Below, in pieces: positions 10,181 to 42,002 of a stretch of 64,000 bases of DNA. This DNA is from Halomonas sp. I5-271120 (GTDB taxonomy: Bacteria; Pseudomonadota; Gammaproteobacteria; Pseudomonadales; Halomonadaceae): the NCBI RefSeq assembly GCF_030553075.1, contig NZ_CP130701.1, positions 3,348,001-3,412,000 on the forward strand. Reading direction: 5' to 3'. Position numbers and translations under genes: made by a program. The notes under the pieces were generated by a model. It saw only the letters and a list, made by a program, of their open reading frames with translations. It searched no databases and had not been told where the DNA came from. How positions within the stretch are numbered: the stretch's first letter is position 1; the number at the start of each line of letters is the position of its first letter.

Positions 10181-12652
10181 ATGAAACAAGATCAGCACGA
10201 CCATTGTCACGGGCATGCATCGCATGATGTATCAGCACGAGGCAGTGGCGAGACGGACCACGTCTCTGCCGGCTGCCAGGGAGACCACCAGAGTGTCGAC
10301 CAGTACATCTGTCCGATGCACCCGGAGGTGGTGGCCAACCAGCCGGGTGACTGCCCGAAATGCGGCATGCACCTCGTGCCCGTGGTAAGCGATGACCCAA
10401 AGGCCCTCGCCGGCCATGACGATACTGTCCACGACCAGTGTCACGAGCACGAGGCGGACCATAATGCCAACCATGAGGCTAGTACGCCGGTGCGTGGCGG
10501 CAAGTACGACAAGGTGCCGGCCGGGCATGCCGGCGCCGTCTACACTTGCCCGATGCACCCCGAGGTGCGCCAGACCGCCCCCGGCGCTTGCCCGTTGTGC
10601 GGCATGGGGCTGGAGCTGGAATCGTCGGCGGTCGGCGATGAGGGGCCGAATCCCGAGCTGATCGACTTCACCCGGCGCTTCTGGGTCGCGGCCATCTTCA
10701 CGGTCCCGTTGCTGGTGCTGACGATGTCTCCCTTCCTGGGCCTCACGGCGATCCGCGACGTTTTCGGCGAGCGCACCACGCTGTGGATCGAATTCGTCCT
10801 GGCGACGCCGGTGATCCTGTGGTCGGGCTGGCCGTTCTTCGTCCGCGGTGTCAACTCTTTTCGGACGATGAATCTTAACATGTTCAGCCTGATCGCCATG
10901 GGAGTCGGCTCGGCCTATCTGTTCAGCATCGTCGCGCTGCTGGCGCCGGGCATCTTTCCCGAGGGCTTTCGCGACGAGAGCGGCAATGTCGGCGTCTATT
11001 TCGAGGCCGCTGCGGTGATCGTCGCGCTGGTCCTGCTGGGTCAGGTGATGGAGTTGCGCGCCCGTGAAGGCACCGGCAAAGCGATTCGCGCGCTGCTGGA
11101 CATGGCTGCCAAGACCGCGCGGGTGATCCGGCCCGATGGCAGCGAAGAAGAGGTCGCGCTGGATGACGTGCAGGTGGGTGATCACCTGCGGGTGCGGCCG
11201 GGTGACAAGGTGCCGGTGGACGGCGTGGTGGTCGAAGGCCGCTCCTCGATCGACGAGTCGATGATCACGGGCGAGCCGGTGCCTGTGGAAAAGGTCGACG
11301 GCGACAAGGTCACCGGGGCCACGATCAATGGCACCGGCAGTCTGGTCATGGAAGCCACCCGTGTCGGCGCCGATACCATGCTCAGCCAGATCGTCGAGAT
11401 GGTGGCAAATGCCCAGCGCTCCCGCGCGCCGATCCAGAAGTTCGCCGACAAGGTGGCGGGCACGTTCGTCCCTGCGGTGATCGGCGTCGCCATTCTCTCC
11501 TTCATCGCCTGGGCGATCTGGGGGCCGGCGCCGGCGCTGTCCTATGCGCTGGTCTCGGCGGTGGCGGTACTGATCATCGCCTGTCCCTGTGCGCTGGGCT
11601 TGGCCACGCCGATGTCGATCATGACGGCCACCGGGCGCGGCGCCCAGCTGGGAGTGCTGATCAAGAATGCCGAGGCGTTGGAGCGTTTTGCCAAGGTCGA
11701 TACGTTGATGGTCGACAAGACCGGCACCCTGACCGAGGGCAAACCGAAGCTGGTGGCGGTGTTGCCGGAAGAGGGGCATGACGAGGCCGAGGTGCTACGC
11801 CTGGCGGCCAGTCTGGAGCGCGGCTCCGAACACCCGCTGGCCGAGGCGATTGTAGGCGGCGCCGAGGAACGTGGGGTGACACTCGCCGATGCCAGCGATT
11901 TCGAGGCCGTGACCGGCATGGGCGTCAAGGGTGTGGTCGACGGCAAGCCGGTGGCGCTGGGTAATGCCAAGCTGATGGCCGAACTGGGCCTCGACGGCGG
12001 CAAGCTGTCGGACACCGCCAATGACCGCCGTGACCAGGGCGAGACGGTGATGTTCGTCGTACTCGACGGCGCCATCGCGGGTCTGGTCAGTGTCGCCGAC
12101 CCGGTGAAGGAGACAACGCCCGAGGCACTGAAGGCGCTGCACCAACTGGGCTTCCGCATCATCATGGCGACGGGCGACAACGAGCGGACGGCGAAAGCGG
12201 TGGCTGGGCGACTGGGCATCGACGAGATCCGCGCTGATGTGATGCCTGAAGACAAGGCCCGCATCATCCGTGAACTGCAGGAACAAGGCCGCAAGGTGGC
12301 GATGGCGGGCGACGGGGTCAATGATGCCCCCGCCCTGGCTCAGGCCGATGTCGGCATCGCCATGGGCACCGGCGCCGACGTGGCGATCGAAAGCGCAAGC
12401 TTCACCCTGGTCAAGGGCAATCTCGACGGCATCGTGCGGGCCCGCAAGTTGTCGCTGGCCACGATGCGCAACATCAAGCAGAACCTGTTCTTCGCGCTGA
12501 TCTACAACGGGGCCGGCGTGCCTGTCGCGGCCGGGGTCCTGTTTCCGTTCCTCGGTATCCTTATCTCGCCGATGTTCGCCGCCTTTGCGATGAGCGCGTC
12601 GTCCTTGTCGGTGGTCACGAATTCGCTGCGGCTGCGTCGGGTGAAGATCTGA
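10181..12652 (+). CDS. Heavy-metal P1B-type ATPase (Cu+/Ag+ type) with two N-terminal HMBD domains
   Basis: 823 aa. The N-terminus is His-rich and has two heavy-metal-binding domains (about 43-67 and 121-145; ICPMHPEV...CPKCGM and TCPMHPEV...CPLCGM) instead of the usual HMA fold. Eight membrane helices follow, with the CPC metal motif [11 protein letters not shown] (about 467-477), the phosphorylation site DKTGT (about 512), SEHPLAEA (about 547), TGDNERT and [10 protein letters not shown] (about 708-717). The CPC motif places it in the P1B-1 Cu+/Ag+ export group, near CopA/SilP. The same HMBD type is repeated in the complex-I-like fusion at 22477-24450. Cu versus Ag cannot be separated by eye. 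Confidence 0.93.
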
Positions 12653-16070: not shown

Positions 16071-17435
16071 TCACGTCGCCAGTCCCGCTAGGAAAATCTG
16101 AGCGGCCAGTCCGATGATCAGTGTGGCGGCAAACGTGATCATGACCACGATGCCGGGCCATGTGCCCGGTGAAATGGTTGTCTTTTCCGCCGTCCGGTAC
16201 ATTGGCACTACGATGCGTAGATACACCGCGAGCGAGAGCACGCTGTTGACGATCGCTATGATTGCCAGCCAGGTGAACTGGACGTCGATGGCAGCAGCAA
16301 AGAGCATGAATTTGCCGACGAAGCCGGCCAGCGGCGGAATGCCGACCAGCGACAGCAGGAAGATCACCATTGCAATACCCATAATCGGCCGTGCACGTCC
16401 CAGCCCGTCAAAATCGTTCAGAGTGCGCCCGGTTGCGGCGGCAACCGCGAAAGCACCCAGGTTCATGGCCGCATAGGCGGCGGCAAACAGAATGATCGAT
16501 GGTAGTGCAAGCTCACTTGAGCCCACCGCCACAATGCCCAGAAGAAAATAACCGGACTGGGCAATCGACGAATAGGCCAGCAGCCGGATGACGTTGTCCT
16601 GCACCAGTGCAGCGAGATAGCCATAGGTCATGCTGAGAACCGCGAGGCCCGCAATGACGGCAGTCCAACCGGTTTCCGGGGGCAGGTCACGAACCACCTG
16701 CGTTAGCGCAAACAGGGCGCCAACCTTGGGCACTACAGACAGATAAGCTGCAATCGAGAGGGGCCCGCCCTCGTAGGCATCTGGCGCCCAGAAATGAAAC
16801 GGAACCAGCGATGCCTTGTAGCCCAGACCAACAACAACAGCCACGAACCCGAGAATGACAGCCATCGGCATCGTATCCATCCCCGGCAGATCGGCAATCA
16901 GTGTGGAGCCCGAAGCGCCGAACCAGTAACTCAGGCCGAAAATCATGATCGATGTGGTGACCGAAGCGAATACAAAGAATTTCATCGCAGCTTCGGTCGC
17001 CGGATCAGTATCCGGATAGGCAACCAGGGCAAAGGTGGCCAGGCCGGTCAGCAGTGTACCCAGTACCAGGAACATGGTATCCCCTGCCCCTGCCAGAACC
17101 AGGGCGCCGAGGGTGGCAAAGATCAGCAGGCTATAGACCGTACCTTCGCGGGCGCTCCCCCGAACATCCACCCGCGCCAACAGCATCGAAAGCACTGTAG
17201 CAGGCAGCAAAATAAGCTTGGCCCAGATGCTCAGAGCATCGATTCGAAAGCTGCCTCCAAACACCGTTGTGTCTGTGCCCAGCAGGCGCAGGGTCAGCCC
17301 CGTGGCAACGAGCAAGCCGATGACGGCGACAGCCAGCGAAATTCGGGGTCGGCGCAGCATTTCCGCGATCAGCGCACCGACAGCCGTCAACAGGACGGCA
17401 ATTTCCGGGATTAATAATGCGAGATCTCGACCCAT
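16071..17435 (-). CDS. nuoN: NuoN-like proton-channel subunit of a complex-I-like assembly
   Basis: 454 aa, 14 or so membrane helices. The antiporter-like core is visible: GLGYKASLVPFHFWAPDAYE (about 206-225) with its channel Lys, and YLSVVPKVGALFAL just after. NuoN is one of the three Mrp-like proton-channel subunits of complex I. It is the last gene of an eight-gene minus-strand operon; its start overlaps the NuoM stop (ATGA type). NuoN's presence shows the operon kept a full pumping arm although the NADH module is absent. Function in a canonical NADH dehydrogenase is unlikely here. Confidence 0.85.
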   Translation of the reverse strand: MGRDLALLIPEIAVLLTAVGALIAEMLRRPRISLAVAVIGLLVATGLTLRLLGTDTTVFGGSFRIDALSIWAKLILLPATVLSMLLARVDVRGSAREGTVYSLLIFATLGALVLAGAGDTMFLVLGTLLTGLATFALVAYPDTDPATEAAMKFFVFASVTTSIMIFGLSYWFGASGSTLIADLPGMDTMPMAVILGFVAVVVGLGYKASLVPFHFWAPDAYEGGPLSIAAYLSVVPKVGALFALTQVVRDLPPETGWTAVIAGLAVLSMTYGYLAALVQDNVIRLLAYSSIAQSGYFLLGIVAVGSSELALPSIILFAAAYAAMNLGAFAVAAATGRTLNDFDGLGRARPIMGIAMVIFLLSLVGIPPLAGFVGKFMLFAAAIDVQFTWLAIIAIVNSVLSLAVYLRIVVPMYRTAEKTTISPGTWPGIVVMITFAATLIIGLAAQIFLAGLAT

Positions 17436-18904
17436 TACAGCACCAGTACCGATGTGGTCCGGTGAATGATGTCCAGCACCCAGGACGGCGCAACACCTGT
17501 GGCGACAGTGAGCACTAGCAGGGGCGCCACAGCGAGAATTTCGCGCGGGCTCAGATCCGGCATTTTATTCCAGCGCTCCCGGGGCTCACCCAGAAAGGTT
17601 TCACGCAGTGCCTTGAGAAAGGTTCCGGCGATAATGGCAATGCCCAGAATCACGATAACGGCAATGGGAGTGGTACCGAGAGTCGCGAGGAATATCTGGA
17701 ACTCAGCCGGGAAGTGCGCGAGGCCCGGGAGACCCAGAGACGCGAAAGCTGCCAGCACAAAGAGCCAGCCAAGCAGCGGAACTGTTTTGAGCAGGCCACC
17801 AAACTCGCTCATTTCGCGGGTCTGGGCACGCTCCTGGATCATGCCCACCAGGAAAAACAGGGCACCGGTGACCAGACCGTGACTGAACATCTGCAGCACG
17901 GCACCGTCCAGAGCGGTGGCACGCACGGCAGGATCCAGTGTTAGCGCAGCCGCGGCGACGCCGACGATCACGTAGCCCATGTGGTTGACTGAGGTATAGG
18001 CCACCAGGCGCTTGAGATCCGTCTGTGCCAGGGCGGCAAAGGCGCCGTAAATCGCGCTGACGACACCGAAGAACAGAACAACGATTCCGGCTTCGCGGAA
18101 AGCGTCAGGGGTCATTTGCAGGGCGAAGCGCACAAGCCCGTAAGTCCCGAATTTCAACATGATGCCAGCCAGGATGACGCTACCAACGGTCGACGCCTGA
18201 ACATGGGCTGCCGGCAGCCAGGTATGCAACGGTACGGCGGGAATCTTGACCGCAAAGGTAATCAGCATGGCGATCAGCGCCCACATGGCCGCCGCCCCCT
18301 CCAGCGGAGGATGGGCAATCCAGGCCCGCATATCGAAGGTAGGATCAGGGCTGCCGAGGTAAAGCCCCAGAATAGCAAGCAACAATGGCAGGCTGCCCAG
18401 CAGGGTGTAGATAAAGAACATCAGCGCTGCACGTTGCCTGTCTTCGTGTCCCCACCCTGCGATCATGAAATACATCGACACCAGGGAAACTTCAAAGAAC
18501 ACATAGAACAGAATCCCGTCCAGGGCGGTAAAGGTACCGATCGCCGTGGTCTCAAGAAGCAGGACCAGGGCCACGTAGGCCCGCGGGCGATCGCGAAGCG
18601 ACGAGGCGTAGATGAGTGCAACCAGGAAAAGCACGGCACTCAGTAGCACCAGCGGCAGGCTTATGCCATCAACCCCGACCCGATAAGCGGCGCCGATGGC
18701 CGGCATCCATTCCAGCTCTTCAACCTGGGAAAAGCCCTCACCACTCACCCCCTGCAGCCACATGGCCAGAGCGCCGACCAGAGTCAGGGCGGCACTGACG
18801 ATCGCTATGCCATGCACTGTCCGCGCCGTCGGCTTCGGCAAACACAGAATCAGCACGGCGCCGGCGAGAGGCAAAAACAAGGTCAGAGATACGAGTGGTA
18901 GCAT
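17435..18904 (-). CDS. nuoM: NuoM-like proton-channel subunit
   Basis: 489 aa. Contains FFEVSLVSMYFMIAGWG (about 135-151), with the conserved membrane Glu, and VKIPAVPLHTWLPAAHVQAS (about 220-239), the channel Lys and broken-helix region of the Mrp/NuoM family. LKRLVAYTSVNHMGYVIVG is likewise typical. The proton path therefore looks intact. It begins 15 nt after the NuoL stop and overlaps NuoN by 1 nt. Confidence 0.88.
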   Translation of the reverse strand: MLPLVSLTLFLPLAGAVLILCLPKPTARTVHGIAIVSAALTLVGALAMWLQGVSGEGFSQVEELEWMPAIGAAYRVGVDGISLPLVLLSAVLFLVALIYASSLRDRPRAYVALVLLLETTAIGTFTALDGILFYVFFEVSLVSMYFMIAGWGHEDRQRAALMFFIYTLLGSLPLLLAILGLYLGSPDPTFDMRAWIAHPPLEGAAAMWALIAMLITFAVKIPAVPLHTWLPAAHVQASTVGSVILAGIMLKFGTYGLVRFALQMTPDAFREAGIVVLFFGVVSAIYGAFAALAQTDLKRLVAYTSVNHMGYVIVGVAAAALTLDPAVRATALDGAVLQMFSHGLVTGALFFLVGMIQERAQTREMSEFGGLLKTVPLLGWLFVLAAFASLGLPGLAHFPAEFQIFLATLGTTPIAVIVILGIAIIAGTFLKALRETFLGEPRERWNKMPDLSPREILAVAPLLVLTVATGVAPSWVLDIIHRTTSVLVL

Positions 18905-18919
18905 GAATACAGGGTTCCT

Positions 18920-20743
18920 TTAGAAACTCAGTGAAGCTGAAAACAGGATGACAAGGAGCACAGCGGTGGCTACGGCGCTGATCGCCAGGCTGTGATGGAT
19001 CAGGCCGCTTTGCAGGGTTCTCGCCCGCGCGCCCAGGGCCCGCACACCGGCCACCAGGGCGAAGATCAGACCGTCGATACCACGCTCATCCCCGCCCCGA
19101 ACCCAGCGACCCACCGCCAGATTGGCGCGACCGACGCCAAGCGCGGCCGCATAAAGGTGGCCTTCCAGACGGTCACACCGCCGGGCAACAGCCATTACGG
19201 GCCGACCTACCCAGGCGGTGAGCCCGCCCGCAACCACTAGCCCCGATGCTGCCCATTGATGGGCAGGCCCAAGCAGACGCTTGACCGGCACTAGCCAGCC
19301 CAGCGCCAGACCACCCAAGGCGGCGACGAGTCCGGACAATATGGCGCCGATACCTGTGGTTTCCGGCACCGGCAGATCAAGCATTGTTTCGAGTGGACCA
19401 AAGGCCAGACCCAGGCCTGCGGCGGGGATCGCCAGACCCCAGATGCCAGCGCGCATCCAGCCAGTACCGGCGACCGGCCGGGTATCGCCGGAGCTCTGCC
19501 AGAGCAAGCGTAAAGCCCGGGCCATATAGGCGCCGGTCAGCAGAGTGCCTGCCAGGGCCAGAGGGCCGAGCCAGACGGCGCCCTGTGCAGACAGAGCGGC
19601 GGTGATAACCGCATCCTTGGAGAAGAACCCGCTCAGCGGTGGAATGCCAGCCAGTGCCAGCGCCGCCAGAGCAAAGCCAGCGAAGGCCCAGGGTCTGGAG
19701 CGGCCAACGCCCTTCAGCCGATCGAAAGTGGTATCGCCACGCGCATGCTGGAAATCACCGGCAGCCAGGAACAGGCTGCTCTTGATGGCAGCATGGGCGA
19801 GCAAGTGCAACAGGGCGGCCAGCGGAACCCCGGCGCTCACTGCGATCAGCATCAGGCCGTACTGACTGGCCGTAGAAGCCGCGAGCAGGCGTTTGAGATC
19901 ACGCTCGGCCAGCGCAATCACCCCGGCTGCCACCGTGGTAACGCCACCAACAAGCCCAATGGCGAAAAGCGCTTCAGGAGTCAGCAGCGGGGCCGAGCGG
20001 ATCAGCAGGATCGCGCCCGCCGCCACCAGCGTGGCCGAGTGCAACAACGCCGAGACCGGTGTCGGGCCCGCCATGGCGCGCATCAGCCAGTCCTGCAGGG
20101 GAACCTGGGCCGACTTGCCCATGGCGGCCAGCAGTAACAGAAGCCCGGCCGCGGTCGAGGCACTACCACCAGCGGTCAGGGAGACGGCAATCTCACTGGT
20201 ACCTGCCGACCCGATAAGTATGAATACCGCAACGTAAAGCCCGAGATCTGCGCTGCGGGTATAGAGGAAAGCGCGGCTGGCTGCGTTCGCGGCTTCGGGC
20301 CGCTGGAACCAGAAGCCGATCAGCAGGTAACTGCAGAGGCCGATCAGTTCCCAGGCCGCCAGCAGCAGAACCCAGTCGCCGGCCAGCACCAGCGCCTGCA
20401 TGGCGGCCAGGAACAGGGACATTACGGCGTAGAAGCGCGCCTGACCAGACCCTCGCTTCATGTAACCGACGGCATGGATCAGCACGAATGTACCCACCGT
20501 GGCCACCGTCACGGCCAATAACGCCGTAAGCGGCACGCCGACCAGTCGCAGTGGCATGTCCGGCAGACCGGGCATAAGTAGGGTTTCGGTCTGACCACTA
20601 GCCACCCGGGCCAGAAGCCAGAGGCTTCCCGCCAGGCTGAGCGTTGCGCCAGCCAGGGCCAGTGCAGGCGGCCACCGGCGCAGTATCAACACGGCCAGGG
20701 CGGCGATCAGCGGCGGTAATATCGGCAGGACCACTGCATTCAT
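18920..20743 (-). CDS. nuoL: NuoL-like proton-channel subunit
   Basis: 607 aa, about the usual NuoL length, so the C-terminal lateral helix and final membrane anchor (IHHSLAISAVATAVLLVIL) are probably present. Family motifs: LLAAWELIGLCSYLLIGFWF (about 128-147) with the key Glu, GKSAQVPLQDWLMRAMAGP (about 209-227), TPVSALLHSATLVAAG and LLAHAAIKSSLFLAAG. In complex I NuoL is the distal pump. It starts inside the NuoK stop (ATGA overlap). Relatives also form MrpA and DabB, which work without electron transfer, so a non-redox partner is conceivable. Confidence 0.88.
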   Translation of the reverse strand: MNAVVLPILPPLIAALAVLILRRWPPALALAGATLSLAGSLWLLARVASGQTETLLMPGLPDMPLRLVGVPLTALLAVTVATVGTFVLIHAVGYMKRGSGQARFYAVMSLFLAAMQALVLAGDWVLLLAAWELIGLCSYLLIGFWFQRPEAANAASRAFLYTRSADLGLYVAVFILIGSAGTSEIAVSLTAGGSASTAAGLLLLLAAMGKSAQVPLQDWLMRAMAGPTPVSALLHSATLVAAGAILLIRSAPLLTPEALFAIGLVGGVTTVAAGVIALAERDLKRLLAASTASQYGLMLIAVSAGVPLAALLHLLAHAAIKSSLFLAAGDFQHARGDTTFDRLKGVGRSRPWAFAGFALAALALAGIPPLSGFFSKDAVITAALSAQGAVWLGPLALAGTLLTGAYMARALRLLWQSSGDTRPVAGTGWMRAGIWGLAIPAAGLGLAFGPLETMLDLPVPETTGIGAILSGLVAALGGLALGWLVPVKRLLGPAHQWAASGLVVAGGLTAWVGRPVMAVARRCDRLEGHLYAAALGVGRANLAVGRWVRGGDERGIDGLIFALVAGVRALGARARTLQSGLIHHSLAISAVATAVLLVILFSASLSF

Positions 20744-21051
20744 CCTTTAAGGTCCTGCGCTTCTTCCATCTCTACCGAGCCCTTGGCCCGGAAGCGGGCG
20801 ATGGCAATGCCAAAGCCGACCGCCATCTCCAGCGCCATAACCGTCATCACCACCAGCACAAACATCTGGCCGGAATAGGCTTCTGGGTGCAGAAAGCGCC
20901 AGAAAGCGACCAGGTTCACCATCGCGCCCGCCAGCATTAGCTCCACGCCCATCATGATCATCACCAGATTGGTCTGGGACAGTGCGCCATAGATACCGAT
21001 ACCGAAGAGTATTGCGCCGATCAGAAGCGCTACTATCAGAACTGCGGTCAT
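20740..21051 (-). CDS. nuoK: NuoK-like membrane subunit
   Basis: 103 aa, three membrane helices, with the family core NLVMIMMGVELMLAGAMVNL (about 28-47), including the conserved membrane Glu of NuoK/MrpC. The start overlaps the NuoJ stop and the stop overlaps the NuoL start by 4 nt. Confidence 0.88.
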   Translation of the reverse strand: MTAVLIVALLIGAILFGIGIYGALSQTNLVMIMMGVELMLAGAMVNLVAFWRFLHPEAYSGQMFVLVVMTVMALEMAVGFGIAIARFRAKGSVEMEEAQDLKG

Positions 21052-21584
21052 TCCGATGACTCCTTGTCGTTTTTACTCGCCAGGTTCTGCACCGGAATTG
21101 CCACCGCCGTGGCCGCAATCATCGCGGTCAGGATGGTGATGCCAGCGGTTTCGAAGATCATCATCGAGCGCCCGAGCAGCTCCATGCCCAGCGCCCGTGT
21201 CTGCGCCTCCGCGTCCGGCACCTGGTCCGCCAAGGGACCCCAGTCGGACAGCAGTGCAATGGCGATGGCAACAACGGCGGCACTGACCCCGGCACCGATC
21301 GAGAAGCGCTTCTGGTGGCTCATATCCATACCGCCAAGCCCACCGGGATCCATCATGAACATCACCATGAAGATGGCCATGATGCTCATCTCCGTGGCCA
21401 TCATCATGATCTGCAGTACACCCAGAAATTCGGTCTGCATCGCCAGAAACATGCAGCCGACGGCGGTCTGCGAAAACAACAGCGCCAGTGCGGAACGGAC
21501 CATGGACGATGTGCGAAACACCACCAGGCCGAAGCCGATTGCGGCCAGCCCGAACACAGCGACAAAAAAAGCCTGTGCGTACAT
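21048..21584 (-). CDS. nuoJ: NuoJ-like membrane subunit
   Basis: 178 aa with five membrane segments. NuoJ-like features are SALALLFSQTAVGCMFLAMQ (about 31-50) and LGVLQIMMMATEMSIMAIFM (about 54-73), where canonical NuoJ has A-x-Q-I-x-x-Y-x-G-A; the usual Tyr is replaced here by Met. Starts one base into the NuoH stop (TAATG). Confidence 0.82.
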   Translation of the reverse strand: MYAQAFFVAVFGLAAIGFGLVVFRTSSMVRSALALLFSQTAVGCMFLAMQTEFLGVLQIMMMATEMSIMAIFMVMFMMDPGGLGGMDMSHQKRFSIGAGVSAAVVAIAIALLSDWGPLADQVPDAEAQTRALGMELLGRSMMIFETAGITILTAMIAATAVAIPVQNLASKNDKESSE

Positions 21585-22480
21585 TAGGGAACCACCAGGA
21601 TCAGTAAACCGACAATAATGATATTAACCAGTGCCAGGGGGATGCCCATAATCCAGCACCACCGCATCAGATCCGCCTCGCGAATGCGTGGCAGGTAGCG
21701 ACCGACGAGCAGCATCGACACGGCTACGGCCAGGGTCTTGATCAGGCTCCAGGCCCAGGGCGGCAGCAGCGGGCCATGCCAGCCGCCGAGGTAAAACACC
21801 GTGGTCGCCGAAGCCAGAGTAACCACCAGCGTCAGTCGGGCCAGGCGCAGCACTGCCAGGCGCACCCCGGTGTACTCGGCGTCCACACCTCCGCCAAGCT
21901 CCCCTTCTGCGGTGGGCAGATCGAAGGGGGCACGGAACGCCAGCGCCATGGCGGCAATGAAAAACAGCACGAAGCCCAGAGGCTGGTAGACGATGTTCCA
22001 CAAGCTGCTCTGGGAACCAACGATCGCGGTGTTCACCAGGGACTCTGCACGCATGGCCACGGCCGTGATCGGCATGACAATAAGCATGGAATAGGCAATA
22101 AGCTGGCCCAGAAAACGCCAGCCGCCGATCATCGCGTAGGCGCCATCCGGCCCCCAGCCAGCCATGATCACCGCGACCAGCACATAGGCCAGGGCCGCGT
22201 TGATGAAGAGCGCGCCGGTGCCCAGGTCCGCGATGATCAGATCCGGCGCCAGCGGCAGGACCGCCATGCCAAGCACTGCTACGACCAATAGCAGCACCGG
22301 CGCCGCCTCGAAAAAGACCCGGTCCGGCGAGCGCGGCACAATAGATTCACGTCCGAGGTGAGCCAGGCCGTTGAACAGCGGCGCCGCCGGACTCAGACGC
22401 CCAGTGGCCATCCAGCCCTCAATCACAGCCAGCAGCCAGGCGCTGCCAAGCAGCGCGAGCAAAACGATGGCGACAGTCAC
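21584..22480 (-). CDS. nuoH: NuoH-like membrane subunit with degenerate quinone-site motifs
   Basis: 298 aa, eight membrane segments. The loop FRAPFDLPTAEGELGGGVDA (about 184-203) followed by EYTGVRLAVLRL corresponds to the PFDLPEAE...EY segment of NuoH. In contrast the N-terminal loop, normally ERK followed by Q-x-R-x-G-P, reads AVIEGWMATGRLSPAAP, so residues that shape the quinone chamber are lost. Overlaps the fusion gene before it by 4 nt. I infer the subunit still joins the peripheral fusion to the membrane arm but may not bind quinone in the ordinary way. Confidence 0.82.
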   Translation of the reverse strand: MTVAIVLLALLGSAWLLAVIEGWMATGRLSPAAPLFNGLAHLGRESIVPRSPDRVFFEAAPVLLLVVAVLGMAVLPLAPDLIIADLGTGALFINAALAYVLVAVIMAGWGPDGAYAMIGGWRFLGQLIAYSMLIVMPITAVAMRAESLVNTAIVGSQSSLWNIVYQPLGFVLFFIAAMALAFRAPFDLPTAEGELGGGVDAEYTGVRLAVLRLARLTLVVTLASATTVFYLGGWHGPLLPPWAWSLIKTLAVAVSMLLVGRYLPRIREADLMRWCWIMGIPLALVNIIIVGLLILVVP

Positions 22481-24450
22481 GAAGTCACCTCCCAGGGCGA
22501 AAGGTCCAGTGACCCGACTGCCAGCAGCGCATCGCCCAGTTCCTGGCCCTCGACAAGCTTCGGGACCAGGCCGATATGGTGACTGCAGGCGGTGTCCAGC
22601 TCGTATGACTTAACATGGCCGCGCTCCAGTTTCAGACTTAGCCGGGCCTCGCCGCGCGGAGTGTCAACGGTTGCCTCACCGGTTCCTGACACATCGCCAA
22701 CGTCGCGCAGAACCGGCAGCTCCGGTTCTGCGCCCGACTTTATAAGGTCAAGGCTGGCCGAAATTTCGGCCAGGCGCTGCCACAGGCGCGCCCAGGCATC
22801 TCCGCCTTCGTTGGCAGCACTCGCTACGGGGCCGCGCAAACCAGAAGATTCCGTTGGCAGTATACCGACTCCCATCAGCCGCGATTTAAGCAAAGGCGTT
22901 CGTTCAAGGCGGGTACCCAATGTACGCAGCGCTGGCTCCAGGGCAGCAAGACTGTCCCGGTTAGCCTCTCTGACTTGCAGTTGCAGAGTTGAAGCCCGTT
23001 GCGTCAGCCAGGCGAAGCCGAGCTGGCGCCCTAACTGAGCCAGCCAGCCAAGATGACTGGCGATGCGCTCACGCTCAAGGGCGCCAGTGCGGGCACCGGC
23101 GTTTGCCGAATCGTCCTCCAGTCCTGCCGCTTGCTCTATTGCCAGACAAGCCAAAAGACGGTAGCTCACCGGCGCGAGCGGAATTGCAGCTGACAGATAC
23201 GCAATGAAGGTCTCGGCATCCATCTCTTCACTTTCTTCAACATTGTCACCTTTGCTGGTCACCCCCACCAGGGAGATCGCCTGCCCCTCCGTTACGCCGT
23301 CACCATCAAGGGTCAGCGTCAACTTCAGTCCGCCGGGCAAGCCAGGGAAGACCGGACCGAACGGCACCTCAAGCCAGTCCATCTGCAGGCCGTCGGCGCT
23401 GCGCGGCAGGTCTTTGGTGACTTCAATCATGGACATGAATCCCGAGGAACCATGATCATGTCCTTCATGATCATGTCCTTCATGATCATGCCCACCGTGA
23501 TCGTGTTCACCGTGATCGTGTTCACCGTGATCATGGCCGGAATGTTCATGTTCTGAGTGGTCGTCAGATTCACGGACTACCAGATCCATGCCGCACTTCG
23601 GGCAGCTGCCCGGTTCGTCCCGAACAATTTCGGGGTGCATGGGGCAGGTATATTCGGTCCCAGCATTTTCGGGAGCGTGTTCCGGTTGGTGTTCGTTATT
23701 GTGGTCGTGGTCGTGGTCGTGGCCGTGGTCCTGATCATGGCCATCATGATGCTCATGATGCCCATGGTGGCTCTGGTGCTCATGGTGGCTCTGGTGCTCA
23801 TGGTGGCTCTGGTGCTCCTGGTCATGGCAATGCTCGTGTTCGTGGCCATGGTGTTCGTGATCTTCGTGATGTTCATGATCGCTGCCGCCGTCAGGGGTTG
23901 ACTCCCCGGCTTCGCGGGCTACCAGGTCCATGCCACATTTGGGGCAGCTACCCGGCTCATCCTCCACAACTTCGGGATGCATGGGGCAGACATACTCGAT
24001 CCTGGCGTGCATTACAGAGGCGTCGAAATCCTCCGGCGAGTCTGTAAAGGCACCGTCAGCCAATGCCCGCTTTAGCTGACCTACGGCTTCGGTCAGATCT
24101 TCTTGCGAGAGGTCTGAGGAGATATCGTCACCCGATAAAGTCGACGGTGTCTGCCCGCCTACCATGAGAATCGCGCGCGGCCGGGGCATCTGCGCGTAGA
24201 GCACTGCCACGGCATCCCCCATTTTCCCGGGCAGATCTCCGACAATCAGAAGCACGCTGGCATCGCGTGGCGTGGTTGCAATGCGCAAGCCTGCTGCAGT
24301 CACGTCCAGACCATGCGCCAGGGCCACTTCCGGGCCCGGAACGATCAGACAGCTCAGGTTACGCGCCAGGGCCCGGGAAACCAGCTTCTGCAGCACTGAG
24401 TAACGTTTCTGCCGTGCGCCCGTTAGGTTTATTGCTGGATCAGAACTCAT
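22477..24450 (-). CDS. NuoB-like / metal-binding / NuoD-like fusion protein
   Basis: 657 aa from the ATG at 24450, which overlaps the NuoA stop as ATGA (an ATG at 24477 is in frame). Residues about 25-130 are NuoB-like: ATTPRDASVLLIVGDLPGKM and LYAQMPRPRAILMVGG match the sPRqADvliVaG and lYdqmPePk..iamGaC blocks. All cluster-N2 ligands are missing: CC reads SC, GaC reads GGQTP and PGCPP is gone. Two HMBD domains (about 152-176, 266-290; CPMHPEV/I...CPKCGMDLV) are separated and followed by His-rich linkers (about 190-255, 297-334). Residues about 340-657 are NuoD-like: FPGLPGGLKLTLTLDGDGV, EREREIASHL-type helix (ALERERIASHLGWL), SSGLRGPVASA and a C-terminus VDTPRGEA...GSLDLSPWEV in which hydrogenase cysteines are absent. 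Likely a metal-sensing or metal-loaded peripheral arm without redox centres (inference). Confidence 0.85.
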   Translation of the reverse strand: MSSDPAINLTGARQKRYSVLQKLVSRALARNLSCLIVPGPEVALAHGLDVTAAGLRIATTPRDASVLLIVGDLPGKMGDAVAVLYAQMPRPRAILMVGGQTPSTLSGDDISSDLSQEDLTEAVGQLKRALADGAFTDSPEDFDASVMHARIEYVCPMHPEVVEDEPGSCPKCGMDLVAREAGESTPDGGSDHEHHEDHEHHGHEHEHCHDQEHQSHHEHQSHHEHQSHHGHHEHHDGHDQDHGHDHDHDHNNEHQPEHAPENAGTEYTCPMHPEIVRDEPGSCPKCGMDLVVRESDDHSEHEHSGHDHGEHDHGEHDHGGHDHEGHDHEGHDHGSSGFMSMIEVTKDLPRSADGLQMDWLEVPFGPVFPGLPGGLKLTLTLDGDGVTEGQAISLVGVTSKGDNVEESEEMDAETFIAYLSAAIPLAPVSYRLLACLAIEQAAGLEDDSANAGARTGALERERIASHLGWLAQLGRQLGFAWLTQRASTLQLQVREANRDSLAALEPALRTLGTRLERTPLLKSRLMGVGILPTESSGLRGPVASAANEGGDAWARLWQRLAEISASLDLIKSGAEPELPVLRDVGDVSGTGEATVDTPRGEARLSLKLERGHVKSYELDTACSHHIGLVPKLVEGQELGDALLAVGSLDLSPWEVTS

Positions 24451-24809
24451 TGCCGCCTGAAAGCCCCCTGACTCCACCCGTAGAGCAGACCGAGAAAAAG
24501 AATGGCAAGAAACACGCCCATATCAAGCAAGGCAACCATTCCTACTTCCTTGTACACAACGGCCCACGGGTACATGAATGCCATCTCCATATCGAAAGCC
24601 AGAAACAGCAACGCGTATCCATAGTAACGAGCGTGATACCGCCCCCATACCGGATCCCGCGACAGGACTCCGGAACTCGCCGGCACATCCTTGCCCGGCT
24701 CCCCGCGTGTCGGGCCTATGGCGCGGGACAAGCTGTAAAGGGAAAGCACCATACCCACGGTACCCAGCGCCAGGCCAAGTAGCAGAACGTATTGCTGCGT
24801 AGCGTTCAT
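24447..24809 (-). CDS. nuoA: NuoA-like membrane subunit lacking the conserved Cys loop
   Basis: 120 aa from the ATG at 24809, behind GGAGGA; the frame is open further upstream but that part has no RBS and overlaps an IS remnant. Three helices, with YYGYALLFLAFDMEMAFMYP (about 60-79) then WAV, the NuoA signature. The first loop, which in NuoA carries E-C-G and takes part in the quinone-site switch, reads SRDPVWGRYHARYY here. First gene of the operon. The promoter must lie within about 24810-24900, next to a decayed IS3 remnant; no copper-box repeat was found there. Confidence 0.85.
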   Translation of the reverse strand: MNATQQYVLLLGLALGTVGMVLSLYSLSRAIGPTRGEPGKDVPASSGVLSRDPVWGRYHARYYGYALLFLAFDMEMAFMYPWAVVYKEVGMVALLDMGVFLAILFLGLLYGWSQGAFRRQ

Positions 24810-25687: not shown

Positions 25688-25835
25688 GTGGAGCACTCCT
25701 TCTTGTCTGTGTCGTCATGACCTCGCTAGCGTCATTTCCCTGCAGGGGGGCGATTTTCTGATCGTTCCGGACGGGGCTCGCAGAACGGAGCAGCCCGGAT
25801 GATGCAGGCGGAGCCTCCACTTATCATGTGTGAGT

Positions 25836-28456: not shown

Positions 28457-28903
28457 TTACTCCCTTGGGTCTTCTGCTTCTCTGAGCCCTTCATGCAATG
28501 ACGCAATTAGCGGGCAAGTGATATTGCCTTGTTTTGCATGGCATCGGTCGACCATTTCGCTCAGCACCTTCTCAATTCTTTCAAGCCTGTCGATCTTCTC
28601 GCGAACGTCCCCTAACTTGTGCTCTGCGAGAGCACTGGCTTCTTGACAGTGGGCGCCATCTTCCAGCCGAAGTAGGTCACTGATCTCATCCAGACTAAAG
28701 CCTAGCTGCTGCGCCGTTTTCACGAACGTCAACCTGTCGATATCGGCGGCACTATAGCGTCGAATACCTCCGGGAGGTCGTTCGGGCTCCGATAATAGCC
28801 CTCGTCGCTGGTAATAGCGGATTGTCTCGACATTGACGCCGGCCGCTTTGGCCAGGCCGCCAATGGTCATGGTGTCCGCCACTTTATCTGCATGTCTCTT
28901 CAT
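28457..28903 (-). CDS. merR: Mercuric resistance regulator MerR
   Basis: 148 aa. Winged helix-turn-helix [20 protein letters not shown] (about 13-32), then a dimer helix. The three Hg(II)-binding cysteines of MerR are present: HCQEAS (about 93), [16 protein letters not shown] (about 128 and 137). DNA-distorting activator and repressor of the mer operon, reading divergently from merT. The ATG at 28903 is kept because GGAG precedes it; 28870 is a shorter alternative. Confidence 0.95.
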
Positions 28904-28908
28904 GATGC

Positions 28909-28939
28909 TTGACTCCGTACCAAGCTACGGAAGTAACCT
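28909..28939 (+). promoter_or_regulatory. mer operator-promoter (PmerT) with 19-bp spacer
   Basis: -35 TTGACT (28909-28914), MerR dyad TCCGTACCAAGCTACGGA (28914-28931) and -10 TAACCT (28934-28939). The 19-bp spacer is the classical MerR-regulated arrangement. Confidence 0.92.
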
Positions 28940-28976
28940 TATCGTAGCTCCCCCCATCCCGAAAGGAGAATCGTCA

Positions 28977-29327
28977 ATGCGGACATCTAAAACGGGGCGA
29001 GGACCCCTGGCCGCCGGAGGAGTCGCGGCCCTCCTGGCCTCGGCGTGTTGCCTCGGCCCGCTGGTTCTGATCACGCTGGGCGTTTCCGGCGCCTGGATCA
29101 GCAATCTGGCGTCGCTGGAGCCCTATCGCCCGCTCTTTATCGGCGTCGCGCTGATGGCGATGTTCTTCGCCTGGCGTCGCGTCTTTCGGCCAGTGGAAAA
29201 GTGCCAGCCGGGAGAGGTGTGTGCCGTGCCACGGGTCAGGACGGGCTACAAGGCGATCTTCTGGCTCGTATTGCTGCTGGTGCTAATCGCCCTGGTATTC
29301 CCCTACGTCTTGCCCCTGTTCTATTAA
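28977..29327 (+). CDS. merT: Mercuric ion transporter MerT
   Basis: 116 aa, three membrane helices. The first helix carries the vicinal pair ASACCLGPLVLITLGVSGAW (about 22-41), and a cytoplasmic loop has EKCQPGEVCAVPR (about 74-86). These cysteine pairs pass Hg(II) from MerP to MerA. RBS AAGGAG upstream. First structural gene of the operon. Confidence 0.95.
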   Translation: MRTSKTGRGPLAAGGVAALLASACCLGPLVLITLGVSGAWISNLASLEPYRPLFIGVALMAMFFAWRRVFRPVEKCQPGEVCAVPRVRTGYKAIFWLVLLLVLIALVFPYVLPLFY

Positions 29328-29340
29328 AAGGAGATCTACC

Positions 29341-29637
29341 ATGAAAGCTCGTTTCGCCTTCATCGCGCTACTCGCCCTGCTCAGCACGCCCGCCTTAGCG
29401 GCCCTGCAGACCGTGAAGCTGTCGGTGCCGGGCATGACCTGTGCCGCCTGCCCGATCACCGTCAAGGCCGCCCTCAACAAGGTGGACGGCGTCTCGCAAG
29501 TCGACGTGAGCTACGCGGATCTCGAGGCCGTGGTCACCTTTGACGACGCCCGAACGTCGGTGGAGGCATTGACCGAAGCCACCACCAACGCTGGGTATCC
29601 ATCAACCCCGACATCCTCGCAAGCGGATCGAGAGTGA
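29341..29637 (+). CDS. merP: Periplasmic mercury-binding protein MerP
   Basis: 98 aa. Signal peptide (about 1-20, TPALA), then an HMA fold with the metal site VPGMTCAACPITVKAAL (about 30-46). RBS AAGGAG, 13 nt after merT. Hands Hg(II) to MerT or MerF. Confidence 0.95.
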   Translation: MKARFAFIALLALLSTPALAALQTVKLSVPGMTCAACPITVKAALNKVDGVSQVDVSYADLEAVVTFDDARTSVEALTEATTNAGYPSTPTSSQADRE

Positions 29638-29639
29638 TC

Positions 29640-29897
29640 ATGAAGAATCCCAAGACCCTGCTGCGCGTGAGCGTGATCGGCACCGTCCTGGTGGCATTGT
29701 GCTGCTTTACGCCGATCCTGGTGATCCTGCTTGGCACGGTGGGCCTGGCGGCGCTGACGGGCTATCTCGACGTTGTGTTATTGCCGGCCCTGGCCTTCTT
29801 CATCGGCCTGACCATTTATGCGATTTGGCGTAAGAAGCAGTTCGACGCCTGTTGTGACAACGGCTCTATCAAATCAAGGAATACGCCCCCTGAGTGA
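29640..29897 (+). CDS. merF: Mercury transporter MerF (first copy)
   Basis: 85 aa, two membrane helices; VALCCFTPILVILLGTVGLA (about 19-38) with the Cys pair, and a C-terminal DACCDN pair. The ATG at 29640 aligns with known MerF starts (MKNPKTLLRVS); a GTG at 29634 overlaps the merP stop and is an alternative. Confidence 0.93.
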   Translation: MKNPKTLLRVSVIGTVLVALCCFTPILVILLGTVGLAALTGYLDVVLLPALAFFIGLTIYAIWRKKQFDACCDNGSIKSRNTPPE

Positions 29898-29931
29898 CAT
29901 CAAGCAGCTGCACATCGCGGTCATCGGGTGA
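29890..29931 (+). pseudogene. Fossil start of a deleted merA
   Basis: From CTG at 29890 (where ATG would be expected) the frame reads SDIKQLHIAVIG and then TGA. HIAVIG is the first strand of the MerA FAD domain ([10 protein letters not shown] in the intact merA). So a merA without an NmerA domain once followed the first merF, and was lost when the second merF-merA unit joined. Confidence 0.65.
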
Positions 29932-29970
29932 GTTGTTTACGAGCTTGTCCGCCACGGTGAAGGAATAAGC

Positions 29971-31858
<1,888 letters not shown>

Positions 31859-39371: not shown

Positions 39372-40148
39372 TTAATACCATATCCTCACGCCGGCGACGA
39401 CGCCGGTATCTTCGGTGGCATCCCCCGAGGCGCGGGCCAAGTCAGCCGTGTCACCATAGGACTTTTCCCAGTAGCCGCCGATATAGGGGGCGAACTTTCG
39501 GGTGATTTCATATCGCAACCGAAGCCCGGTGCGAACCGAGTTGAGGCCCTCACCGACGCCAAATTCCGGCACCTCATCGGCTGCCGCTGCGACTTCCAGG
39601 CGCGGTTGCAGGTAGGTCCGCTGGGTGATCCGCAGGTCGTATTCGCTTTCCAGGCTGGCCGAGACATCGCCGTCCTCGCTGACCCTCAGGTCGAGATCGG
39701 TTTCGAAACGATAAGGCACGAGCCCCTGGAGATTGATGACGCCGAAGTAGCGTTCGGGGTGATCGTTCGAAGCGATGCCACCCTGATAGCCGATACCGCC
39801 CTGGAGCTCCCAGAAATCGGTGATCAGACGGCTGTAGAGCAGATCGAGATTTTCGAATTCCGCATCCTCATTGTCACCCTGGACATTCTCGCCTTCCCCC
39901 TTTAGATAGACTCGATTGACATCGCCGCCGTACCAGGCCTGGAAATCCCAGACCAGGGCATCCTCGCCCTTGTCGGGGGAAGCATATTCCAAGCGATCGA
40001 CGAGTATCGAGCCCCGTGAGTGTTCGGCCATCGGCGATGGCCAGTTCGCCGGGGCATCGTAGCCATCGCTGGCCTGAGCGCCAGCGGCCAACAGTATGGC
40101 GAGGGTAGAACCGGTACCGATAACGACAGTCTTGGACTTCATGAACAT
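39372..40148 (-). CDS. copB: Outer-membrane copper resistance protein CopB
   Basis: 258 aa with signal peptide (cut after AGAQA). The CopB/PcoB barrel pattern is clear: LVWDFQAWYGGDVNRVYLKG (about 65-84), ITDFWELQGGIGYQ, HPERYFGVINLQGLVPYRFE (about 127-146), LRLRYEITRKFAPYIGGYWE and the C-terminal RIWY. It lacks the long Met/His-rich N-terminal region of some CopB proteins. Starts 3 nt after the copA stop; ends before a terminator. Confidence 0.93.
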   Translation of the reverse strand: MFMKSKTVVIGTGSTLAILLAAGAQASDGYDAPANWPSPMAEHSRGSILVDRLEYASPDKGEDALVWDFQAWYGGDVNRVYLKGEGENVQGDNEDAEFENLDLLYSRLITDFWELQGGIGYQGGIASNDHPERYFGVINLQGLVPYRFETDLDLRVSEDGDVSASLESEYDLRITQRTYLQPRLEVAAAADEVPEFGVGEGLNSVRTGLRLRYEITRKFAPYIGGYWEKSYGDTADLARASGDATEDTGVVAGVRIWY

Positions 40149-40151
40149 TCC

Positions 40152-41936
40152 TTACGCGACTTTGACGACCCGGAACATGCCGGCATCCATGTGATAGAGC
40201 AGGTGACAGTGGAAGGCCCAGCTGCCCTCGGCATCGGCGGTGATCAGGGCAGATACCCGTTCGCCGGGCTTGACGTTCAGGGTGTGCTTGCGGGGAATCA
40301 GCTCGCTGGCGCCGTTCTCCAGCTCCATCCACATGCCGTGCAGGTGAATGGGGTGTTCCATCATGGTGTCGTTAACCAGGATCAGGCGCAGCCGCTCATC
40401 CTTCTCGAAGTGGATGGGGCCGGTCACTTCGCTGAACTTCTTGCCGTCGAAGGACCACATGTAGCGTTCCATGTTGCCGGTCAGGTGCAGCTCCAGTTCA
40501 CGACCGGGAGGACGCCGGTCCGGCCAGGGTGTGAAGGCCTTGAGGTCGCGATAGACCAGCACGCGGCGTTCGCTCGGGTCGATGCCGACACCGGCCTGAT
40601 CATAGCGAGAGCCGGGTTGTGCGGCGCCCACGGGGAGTATCGCACCGGCCTCGTGGGAAGCCATGTCCTGCATGCCGGACGGGCCCGAGTTCTGCATGTT
40701 GGAATGGTCCATGCCCTGCATGCCGGACGGGCCCGAGCTCTGCATATTGGAATGATCCATGCCCTTCATGCCGGCCATGTCCATGTCGCCATGAGCGCCC
40801 ATGGCCTCCATGCCACGGTCGGCGATCTGGCGCCGCGCCGGGACGGCGGCGGTCATGCCCAGGCGCGGCGCCAGGGTGCCCAGGGCGAAGCCGCTGCGAT
40901 CCATGGATTCGGCGAACAGCGAGTAGGCGCCGTCATCCTTGGGCGTGACGAGAACATCATAGGTTTCCGCCACGCCGATGCGGAACTCGTCTACTGGGAC
41001 GGGCTGTACCGGTTGGCCATCGGCGGCCACCACCGTCATCTTGAGGCCCGGGATACGCATGTCGAAGTAGCTCATTGCCGAGCCATTGATAATGCGCAGT
41101 CGTAGCGTCTCGCCGGGCTTGAACAGGGCGGTCCAGTTATCGCTCGGGGCGTGGCCGTTGAGCAGGTAGGTATAGGTGCTGCCGGTAACGTCGGCGATAT
41201 CCCGCGAGCTCATGCGCATCTGGGCCCACATGGCTCGTTGGGCCGCGGTATCGGCGAAGCCGTTTTTCTCCACGTCGGCGAAGAAGTCGGCGACGGTGCG
41301 CTCCTGGAAGTTGTAGTAGCCTTCACCGAGCTTCAGGTTGCGAAAGACACTGGCCGGATCCTCGAAGGTCCAGTCGGTCAGCAGCAGCACGTGCTCGCGG
41401 TCATACCGAAAGGGCTCCCGCTCGGCGGCATCGATGACCAGGGGACCGGCATGGCCGAGCTGTTCCTGCAGCCCCGAGTGGCTGTGATACCAGTAGGTGC
41501 CGCTCTGGCGAACCGGGAAACGGTAGGTGAAGGTTTCACCGGGCGCGATACCGGCGAAGCTGAGGCCAGGTACGCCATCCATGCCGGGTGGCAGGATCAG
41601 CCCATGCCAATGAATGGAGGTCGGTTCCTCGAGCAGGTTAGTGACTCGAAGCACGGCATCCTGGCCCTCCTTGAGGCGGATCAGCGGGCCGGGGCTGGTG
41701 CCGTTGATGCTGATCAGGCGAGCTGTCTTGCCGGCGATGGGCAGAGTATCTCGGCGTATCGCTAGGGCCAGGTCGGGCCCAGTTTCGACGCCTTGCGGAT
41801 AGCCAGCGGCTTGACCCCAGGGATTGGCCCAGGCTGGGCGCAGGCTCAGGGCGGCGGTACCGAGACCCAGGGCGGCACCACGCTTGAGCAGCTGGCGGCG
41901 TGATAGGGGAAGCCTGGATTGCTTCGCGGCGACCAT
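40152..41936 (-). CDS. copA: Periplasmic multicopper oxidase CopA (PcoA-type)
   Basis: About 594 aa from the ATG at 41936 (AAGGAA upstream; 41975 is open). A Tat signal carries SRRQLLKRG. Three cupredoxin domains with the copper ligands IHWHGLILPPGMDG (about 108-121), TYWYHSHSGLQEQLG, HPIHLHGMWMELENG (about 532-546) and AFHCHLLYHMDAGM (about 572-585). A Met-rich repeat (GMDHSNMQ twice, about 400-430) is typical of CopA. Oxidises Cu(I) or binds copper in the periplasm. Promoter site G sits exactly 50 nt upstream of the start. Confidence 0.95.
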   Translation of the reverse strand: MVAAKQSRLPLSRRQLLKRGAALGLGTAALSLRPAWANPWGQAAGYPQGVETGPDLALAIRRDTLPIAGKTARLISINGTSPGPLIRLKEGQDAVLRVTNLLEEPTSIHWHGLILPPGMDGVPGLSFAGIAPGETFTYRFPVRQSGTYWYHSHSGLQEQLGHAGPLVIDAAEREPFRYDREHVLLLTDWTFEDPASVFRNLKLGEGYYNFQERTVADFFADVEKNGFADTAAQRAMWAQMRMSSRDIADVTGSTYTYLLNGHAPSDNWTALFKPGETLRLRIINGSAMSYFDMRIPGLKMTVVAADGQPVQPVPVDEFRIGVAETYDVLVTPKDDGAYSLFAESMDRSGFALGTLAPRLGMTAAVPARRQIADRGMEAMGAHGDMDMAGMKGMDHSNMQSSGPSGMQGMDHSNMQNSGPSGMQDMASHEAGAILPVGAAQPGSRYDQAGVGIDPSERRVLVYRDLKAFTPWPDRRPPGRELELHLTGNMERYMWSFDGKKFSEVTGPIHFEKDERLRLILVNDTMMEHPIHLHGMWMELENGASELIPRKHTLNVKPGERVSALITADAEGSWAFHCHLLYHMDAGMFRVVKVA

Positions 41937-41970
41937 GGACGATTCCTTCGCGATGAGGTGAGAGGAATCG

Positions 41971-42002
41971 ATCATGCCGGGGTAAACTGAATCTAGCCTG
42001 AG
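41971..42002 (-). promoter_or_regulatory. Repeat-type promoter, site G (copA)
   Basis: Minus strand CTCAGG (42002-41997), N5, TTCAGT (41991-41986), 9 nt, CATGAT (41976-41971). It overlaps the copS stop and lies 50 nt from the copA start codon. Confidence 0.65.

Follow-up and report, generated by a model that had tools for sequence, protein, structure and literature searches.

We analyzed a stretch of 64,000 nucleotides of Halomonas sp. I5-271120 (the window; all coordinates below are those of the whole window), which contains an operon of eight genes related to those of respiratory complex I. Judging from sequence, we propose that the operon encodes a non-redox relative of complex I that exports Cu(I), and possibly Ag(I), driven by the influx of protons via NuoL and NuoM, and perhaps NuoN. 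We give this reading a probability of about 0.58. The feature that we regard as the most telling is a ladder of methionine residues in NuoJ, NuoA and NuoK, which had gone unnoticed in a first-pass annotation of the window.

The operon

The operon lies on the minus strand and spans 16071-24809. Read from NuoA, the start of which is at 24809, the order of the genes is A-[NuoB-like/NuoD-like fusion]-H-J-K-L-M-N, as follows.

24447..24809, minus: NuoA homologue, 120 aa (PF00507, E 1.3e-25; E-channel Asp/Glu kept, FDMEMAFMYP; Met74, 76, 79)
22477..24450, minus: fusion of a NuoB-like part, a metal-binding linker and a NuoD-like part, 657 aa (profile matches, translation)
21584..22480, minus: NuoH homologue (PF00146, E 1.9e-58)
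21048..21584, minus: NuoJ homologue (PF00499, E 3.7e-19)
20740..21051, minus: NuoK homologue (PF00420, E 2.1e-18; Glu36/Glu72 kept; Met31, Met72)
18920..20743, minus: NuoL homologue (Pfam; Glu144, Asp178, Lys229, His254, Lys342 and Lys399 all kept)
17435..18904, minus: NuoM homologue (Pfam; Glu144, Lys234, Lys265 and Glu407 kept)
16071..17435, minus: NuoN homologue (Pfam; Lys217, 247 and 395 kept; Glu133 lost)

The Pfam matches of NuoA, H, J, K, L, M and N had E values of 2e-18 to 2e-66. The fusion most likely starts at the ATG at 24450, which overlaps the stop of NuoA. The first-pass annotation had described eight overlapping genes; the order and the overlaps stood, except that L and M are separated by a gap of 15 bases. 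It had also reported that NuoC, E, F, G and I are absent, and none of these was found among the eight genes.

Methionine residues in NuoJ, NuoA and NuoK

Relatives of the operon form three subtypes, that is, subtype I (the window's own), its sister subtype II, and subtype III of actinobacteria. Alignments across the subtypes revealed the following elements.

21351..21407, minus: Met ladder of NuoJ helix 3, residues 60-78, MMMATEMSIMAIFMVMFMM (alignment across subtypes)
21315..21329, minus: NuoJ loop MxMxH, predicted cytosolic (alignment)
24573..24590, minus: Met cluster M74/M76/M79 of NuoA helix 2, at E. coli V80/A82/L85 (alignment)

Helix 3 of NuoJ in the window reads MMMATEMSIMAIFMVMFMMDPGG. 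Its residues M61, M62, M66, M69, M73 and M78 were present in all 39 rows aligned (26 of subtype I, 11 of subtype II and 2 of subtype III), and the ladder was also seen in three further NuoJ sequences of subtype III. M62 stands at the position of E. coli Tyr59, where 39/39 members have Met and 11/11 canonical rows have Tyr. The residue E65 of the same helix was invariant in a 31-row alignment of subtypes I and II. A structure model shows residues 52-78 as helical with moderate pLDDT, and residues spaced as 62-66-69-73 would fall on a single helix face. In the loop that follows, M86, M88 and H90 were found in 41/41 rows of subtype I, and M88 in 39/39 rows across subtypes. Among the 120 NuoJ homologues listed, out of 1036 found, 87 had the strict ladder pattern, and the 33 others deviated at one or a few positions.

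NuoA M74, M76 and M79, which are located around the E-channel Asp/Glu, occurred in 37, 38 and 38 of 38 members, respectively. In NuoK, M31 and M72 are at most six residues from the positions of Glu36 and Glu72. Passages of PMC8357420 locate in the same region of E. coli complex I the residues NuoH Glu157, NuoA Asp79, NuoK Glu36/72 and NuoN Glu133, as well as the pi-bulge in helix 3 of NuoJ. Most of the new methionines are on these helices.

We then counted a Met as new and conserved when it occurred in at least 90% of the family and in at most 15% of the canonical rows, which numbered 10-11 sequences. There were 14 such positions in 680 columns of A, H, J and K vs 1 in 1536 columns of L, M and N (Fisher p 6e-7). 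By subunit, the values were 3 for NuoA, 0 for NuoH, 9 for NuoJ and 2 for NuoK. With subtype I alone (33-41 rows, threshold 95%), the values were 21/686 and 3/1539 columns (p 1e-8). Methionines of NuoH were considered as a part of the ladder in all subtypes and rejected, four being conserved in subtype I and zero across subtypes.

Loss of redox sites and conservation of proton-channel residues

In an alignment with NuoB of E. coli and Ensifer, no N2 cysteine was conserved in the NuoB-like part, as the first-pass annotation had stated, and the loops flanking the last two E. coli NuoB cysteines were also gone. The NuoD motif GPxHPxxHG is changed to GPxFPGLPGG in subtype I, so that its histidines are lost. 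The claim that the NuoD-like part is without the hydrogenase Cys was borne out, since no cysteine was invariant across 8 members. The position of NuoH Glu157 was Ser or Ala in 26/26 rows of subtype I, and Glu216 was also lost in this subtype. The redox parts, that is, the N2 and quinone sites, thus look dead.

All six NuoL residues checked were kept in every row. The same was true of the four NuoM residues, with Asp in place of Glu144 in the other two subtypes, II and III. In NuoN, Lys247 and Lys395 were kept, Lys217 was Ala in three Bacteroidota, and Glu133 was replaced by Leu or Val in 38/38 members. The earlier statement that all three Mrp-type subunits keep their key Lys and Glu therefore holds for NuoL and NuoM but not for NuoN. 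With the NuoL and NuoM residues intact and the redox residues lost, the complex seems to possess proton channels without a visible electron source.

NuoH of the window was 100% identical to that of Onishia and Halomonas records, which makes the host a relative of Halomonas. We also considered, and set aside, the idea that a separate NADH module in the host genome (100% complete, 4.04 Mb) lends the complex a redox role. No 49-kDa match was obtained at E 0.001, a NuoF-type match reached 382 bits, which is below the cut-off of 558.65 bits, and NuoE, G, C and I were searched at the operon only. A match to NqrA was above the cut-off.

The fusion arm and its metal pads

The elements of the fusion are as follows.

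24046..24393, minus: NuoB-like domain without N2 cysteines, limits approximate (NCBIfam NuoB 2e-06; hhalign to NuoB)
23908..23994, minus: HMBD 1 (PF19335; two HMBD stretches in the fusion, E 3.5e-26)
23659..23907, minus: His-rich linker 1 (translation; pLDDT mostly <50)
23569..23658, minus: HMBD 2 (PF19335; match to 8ovl_A, including the preceding His-rich stretch)
23440..23568, minus: His-rich linker 2 (translation)
23377..23439, minus: motif FMSMxxxTKDLPRSxDGLxM (alignment; without visible counterpart in the two canonical rows aligned)
22480..23439, minus: NuoD-like domain (quinone-site GPxHPxxHG altered to GPxFPGLPGG)

A profile match to NuoB and NuoD had been named as a test of the fusion, and both were obtained. 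The NuoB-like part matched PRK06411 (NCBIfam, 2e-06) and, by hhalign, NuoB with a probability of 96.4 and E 1.3e-09; the NuoD-like part matched PF00346 (Pfam, 4.3e-06) and PRK06075 (NCBIfam, 4.6e-12). Residues 181-345 of the fusion contain 47 His. The top solved-structure match of HMBD 2 with its preceding His-rich stretch was a copper P-type ATPase domain (8ovl_A, E 1.6e-09). In the FMSM motif, M348, S349, M350, T354, D362, G363, L364 and M366 were invariant in 58 rows.

The metal pads vary among the subtypes but recur. Fusions of subtype I carry 0 to 6 copies of HMBD by pattern in addition to His/Met-rich linkers; the Bacteroidota loci L084, L085 and L088 have none by pattern, yet a His- or Met-rich linker is present, and L081 has a variant HMBD. 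In the subtype-II rows printed, we found a GMMGGxPYGRxM linker together with a His-rich NuoJ tail, and 4/5 subtype-III fusions read had a His/Met-rich linker. When a Bacteroidota member was used as the query, PF19335 was detected in 29 of the 120 proteins listed. Since the HMBDs are optional, we rejected the idea that they are the core of the system. The first-pass annotation had placed metal-binding domains where the Fe-S relay would be. Metal-binding elements are indeed found on this arm, which in complex I lies in the cytosol, but the HMBDs do not define the system. From the topology of complex I and the positive-inside pattern, the pads are predicted to face the cytosol.

Three observations concern the shape of these parts. 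NuoJ of L077 (subtype I) has a very long His-rich C-terminal tail, a second way of carrying a metal pad. On plasmids L135 and L138, the annotated fusion is short (302 and 289 aa) and the GMMGGxPYGRPMAM motif is kept. In L084, a Cyclobacteriaceae metagenome-assembled genome (MAG), about 600 bases (9359-9976) separate the fusion from NuoH.

Copper genes near the operon

The window contains, besides cupredoxin and DUF411 genes, the following neighbours.

10181..12652, plus: heavy-metal P1B-type ATPase with two HMBD (Pfam of flank)
39372..41975, minus: CopB and multicopper oxidase (Pfam of flank)
28457..31858, plus: mercury genes, namely HMA protein, MerF and MerA-like reductase (plus), with a MerR-type regulator (minus) (Pfam of flank)

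A set of 13 copper-type queries, drawn from the window and from its relatives, was run by tblastn against the flanks of other loci. Copper-type neighbours were present at 30/46 subtype-I genome loci with a flank of at least 6 kb (26 by CopB, multicopper oxidase or P1B ATPase, and 4 by a CusA-type pump alone), on 5/6 subtype-I plasmids, and at 11/15 loci of subtypes II and III, plus one with DUF305 alone. By the same search, 0 of 18 canonical controls (7-29 kb) had such a neighbour. A Pfam tally of 147 flank open reading frames (ORFs) of 17 loci gave Cu-oxidase_2 7, CopB 5, Cation_efflux 3 and Cupredoxin 3; none of these four was among the 25 families listed, out of 79, for 53 control ORFs.

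At some loci the association is close. A copper gene stands directly before NuoA on the same strand in L117 (CopB), L139 (multicopper oxidase) and L140 (P-type ATPase). In L118, cytochrome c, multicopper oxidase, CopB and one EF-hand gene precede the operon, and L117 is alike. CueR follows NuoN on the opposite strand in L135, and a CsoR-type regulator, an HMA protein and an ATPase are divergent from NuoA in L136. The neighbours and the membrane Met ladder together suggest a strong link of the family to copper. As a separate observation, the subtype-II operon of L124 (3127-8346) is preceded by genes that by eye resemble cytochrome oxidase subunits, not by copper tolerance genes.

The family and its hosts

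A scan of a genome collection gave the best 80 loci of 113 relatives. L027-L089 match NuoH at 54-100%, and from L090 on the identity is at most 37% and the operons look canonical. The family set, L021-L089, consists of 69 loci, six of them on plasmids. None of the 69 departs from the order A-B-D-H-J-K-L-M-N, and all nine pieces were found in 54; because of this, the conserved operon is far beyond chance. The remaining 15 miss pieces, apparently at contig ends, except L086 (Marinobacter salarius R9SW1), in which M and N are missing after L within 20.9 kb without N runs, possibly a broken operon. By script, the fusion is in one frame in 54/69 loci; most of the 15 that remain are interrupted by a contig end or an N run, and L041 and L066 look split. 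A survey of genomes for NuoB-HMBD-NuoD fusions, which had been suggested earlier, thus found the arrangement to be kept, with the HMBD itself variable.

The hosts include Marinobacter, Halomonas, Alcanivorax, Neopusillimonas, Rhodobacterales, Rubrobacter plasmids, a Thermomicrobiales MAG, Salegentibacter and Hymenobacter, to which NuoJ matches add Fodinibius and Haloferula. In a class survey of 369 genomes, NuoJ matched at 71% or more in 14, the window's own included, and at 42-50% in 3 others. In a phylum sample, 9/398 genomes matched, with E up to 1e-15. No NuoJ match was found in the phage collection. Subtype II, reached from the class survey, comprises L117-L120, L122-L127 and plasmids L134, L135 and L138. 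Subtype III came from plasmid searches, L136 and L137 being assigned by tree and L139-L141 by similarity. In trees of NuoM (39 rows) and NuoH (35 rows), drawn with a midpoint root for display only, subtypes I, II and III formed one group apart from the canonical rows, with support of 100/99 and 98/92, respectively. We take this group to be a real and widespread branch of the complex I superfamily, present in several phyla and often plasmid-borne.

A possible mechanism of copper export

In Mrp, cations are placed in a double cavity at MrpC beside MrpA-C, the counterparts of NuoK and NuoJ, and protons pass via MrpA-N and MrpD, according to passages of PMC7419157. We consider it an even chance that complex I has here been turned into a multi-subunit copper pump, in which the redox-driven E-channel has given way to the ladder of NuoJ, NuoA and NuoK, and Cu(I) moves out against proton influx. 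That is, on the same joint reading, a soft-metal ion would stand where electrons stand in complex I and Na+ in Mrp.

Cytosolic Cu(I) would be gathered by the pads, whether HMBD, the His/Met-rich linker of the arm, or the His-rich tail of NuoJ, the observed motifs of which may bind copper. The NuoB/D-like arm, with its dead N2 and quinone sites, would cap the former quinone cavity, and the ion would be handed to the FMSM motif and the MxMxH loop of NuoJ. It would then travel along the ladder in helix 3 of NuoJ, together with helix 2 of NuoA and with NuoK, where the Met positions mark a putative path. Coupling to the protons of NuoM and NuoL, by analogy with Mrp, may run through the central charged axis, in which NuoA Asp/Glu and NuoK Glu36/Glu72 are present. 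Periplasmic multicopper oxidase, CopB and cupredoxins, the genes of which are neighbours, would receive the ion. Export is the direction that we favor because the pads are predicted to be cytosolic and the neighbours are tolerance genes.

The first-pass annotation had proposed a non-redox, proton-coupled assembly that responds to or moves metal. The loss of the redox residues and the conservation of NuoL and NuoM agree with it, and the link to metal is stronger than it claimed and more specific, the neighbours and the Met ladder pointing to copper; the transport or sensing of metal is what we infer. Gene order, residues lost and gained, and neighbours suggest copper as the ion, and its coupled, outward transport.

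Several points weigh against copper export. The direction depends on the pads being cytosolic, as predicted, and the annotated fusion of L136 (subtype III) is without a His-rich pad. The ladder is known from sequence and a helix model, and is not placed in the space of the complex; NuoH has no new Met common to all subtypes. NuoH Glu157 is kept in 2/2 rows of subtype III and 1/11 rows of subtype II, and the Glu that in Mrp faces the cation is missing from NuoN. As for the neighbours, 16/46 subtype-I loci had none of the searched copper genes in the available flank, and L026, L123, L124 and L137 likewise; the queries were drawn from this same family, the window included, the positives are often related, and the controls were small in number (10-11 canonical sequences and 18 loci) and not taxon-matched. 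Resistance islands gather unrelated genes, and mercury genes are present here too.

Alternative explanations

It is rather unlikely that copper only gates a proton or Na+ channel or antiporter, so that the metal regulates the proton motive force or ion exchange under copper stress without passing through. The pads are mostly flexible linkers and in this respect sensor-like, and NuoL and NuoM retain their proton residues. However, a regulatory site needs no conserved intramembrane Met stripe at the position of NuoJ Tyr59, and the ladder is fixed while the pads are variable. The same parts could work inward, and a copper importer that supplies cuproenzymes, e.g. oxidases, would suit L124, which alone has cytochrome-oxidase-like genes upstream (by eye). 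We think import improbable, as the neighbours are mostly tolerance genes, some with CueR-/CsoR-type or two-component regulators, and the pads are predicted to be cytosolic.

A little less probable than import is a proton/sodium pump for marine or osmotic adaptation, which is how nuoAHJKLMN of Salinispora, Kocuria and Streptomyces has been interpreted in print, in passages of PMC3314556, PMC6002675 and PMC6676996. Many hosts of the present family are marine or halophilic. Against this stand the lack of a visible electron input, the Met ladder, the copper neighbours, and the occurrence of the operon on plasmids from soil and clinical isolates; in addition, a passage of PMC6676996 places the operon in strain SM254, which is from copper-rich mine fluid. 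The arm might also conceal a redox pump, in which Cu(I)/Cu(II) or another donor drives quinone reduction. Cytochrome c genes in some neighbourhoods and the conservation of NuoH Glu157 in subtype III speak for it, but the N2 ligands and the NuoD quinone motif are lost in the aligned members, and subtype I has also lost NuoH Glu157 and Glu216; we rate it slightly below the marine pump. We give the least credit to a functionless passenger or a decaying remnant of complex I. L086 without M and N and some short or split fusions would fit such decay, whereas the order kept in 69/69 loci as far as pieces were found, and the strong conservation across phyla, do not.

Comparison with known systems

Like respiratory complex I (NDH-1), the complex has the full membrane set of A, H, J, K, L, M and N. 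Unlike NDH-1, it has no C, E, F, G or I in the operon, B and D are fused around a metal-binding linker, the N2 ligands and the quinone motif are lost, NuoJ Tyr59 is changed to Met, and NuoN Glu133 is lost. Mrp (CPA3) is also a non-redox relative of complex I, and proton influx with cation efflux near NuoJ/NuoK-type subunits is predicted here as in passages of PMC7419157. In contrast to Mrp, there is no MrpE, F or G among the eight genes, NuoA, NuoH and the NuoB/D-like arm are present, and a Met ladder is found where Mrp has a His site for Na+/K+. Group 4 hydrogenases, MBH and MBS differ in that the NuoD-like part has no invariant cysteine (8 members), so that the NiFe ligands are missing; the tree places NuoM nearer to that of complex I than to E. 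coli hydrogenase 4.

The His-rich stretch with HMBD resembles the solved domain of a copper ATPase (8ovl), but the copper P1B ATPase CopA is an unrelated transporter, and this operon contains no ATPase domain. In DAB (DabAB), a NuoL-type subunit is joined to a non-redox partner. No DabA-like protein was found by Pfam among the eight genes, the further neighbours being scanned in part. Since the complex lacks features by which complex I, Mrp, group 4 hydrogenase and DAB are defined, we place it in no known family, and predict that it works like Mrp.

A partial NDH-1 operon of seven genes was described in Salinispora by Penn and Jensen (2012), whose text, in the passages available (PMC3314556), supports horizontal acquisition and interprets the operon as a sodium or proton pump for marine life. 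Passages of PMC6002675 (Kocuria) and PMC6676996 (Streptomyces) read the nuoAHJKLMN operon likewise as marine or osmotic adaptation, and in the latter the operon of strain SM254 is explained by osmotic stress. Compared by the named gene set only, these actinomycete operons are probably the same family, subtype III; the fusion, the ladder and a copper role are absent from these passages. Among the literature titles listed, none connects such an operon with copper, and neither the fusion nor the ladder is described in any. By term counts in the available text, PMC11371751, on copper-resistant Marinobacter, has no mention of NADH, nuo or complex I, and PMC12361115 none of copper or heavy metal. 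The first-pass annotation knew of no described complex of this make-up. Within the literature searched, this stands for the fusion, the ladder and the copper link; the nuoAHJKLMN set itself is probably already in print for actinomycetes.

Passages of PMC7419157 put forward the idea that Mrp and its redox relatives share one mechanism, in which protons are coupled to a cation or to electrons. If copper export is true, the complex would offer a direct test of this idea with a cation recognisable by its own chemistry. Several phyla would then possess a class of copper-handling machine, often on plasmids, that is now annotated as NADH dehydrogenase, and the "marine adaptation" nuo operons of actinomycetes would be re-read as metal-tolerance genes. 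The presence of nuoA/H/J/K/L/M/N should not be counted as respiration.

Additional observations

The same type of operon occurs on plasmids of Mycobacterium avium, M. intracellulare and M. paragordonae (H62-H67, L141), several of them from human samples. On the M. intracellulare plasmid (L141), the operon is near a P-type ATPase and an HMA protein.

Upstream of the operon in the window, a 115-aa ORF at 25349-25696 has no Pfam match and by eye resembles a small metal-associated protein. A VTT-domain (TVP38-type) protein is encoded at 26082-26828, and the same type was found near L117 of subtype II and L022 of subtype I. On the other side, an APC-type permease (PF13520) at 14057-15394 adjoins the operon. 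It recurs near subtype I (6/147 flank ORFs) and on plasmids L134 and L138, and is possibly linked to the operon in function.

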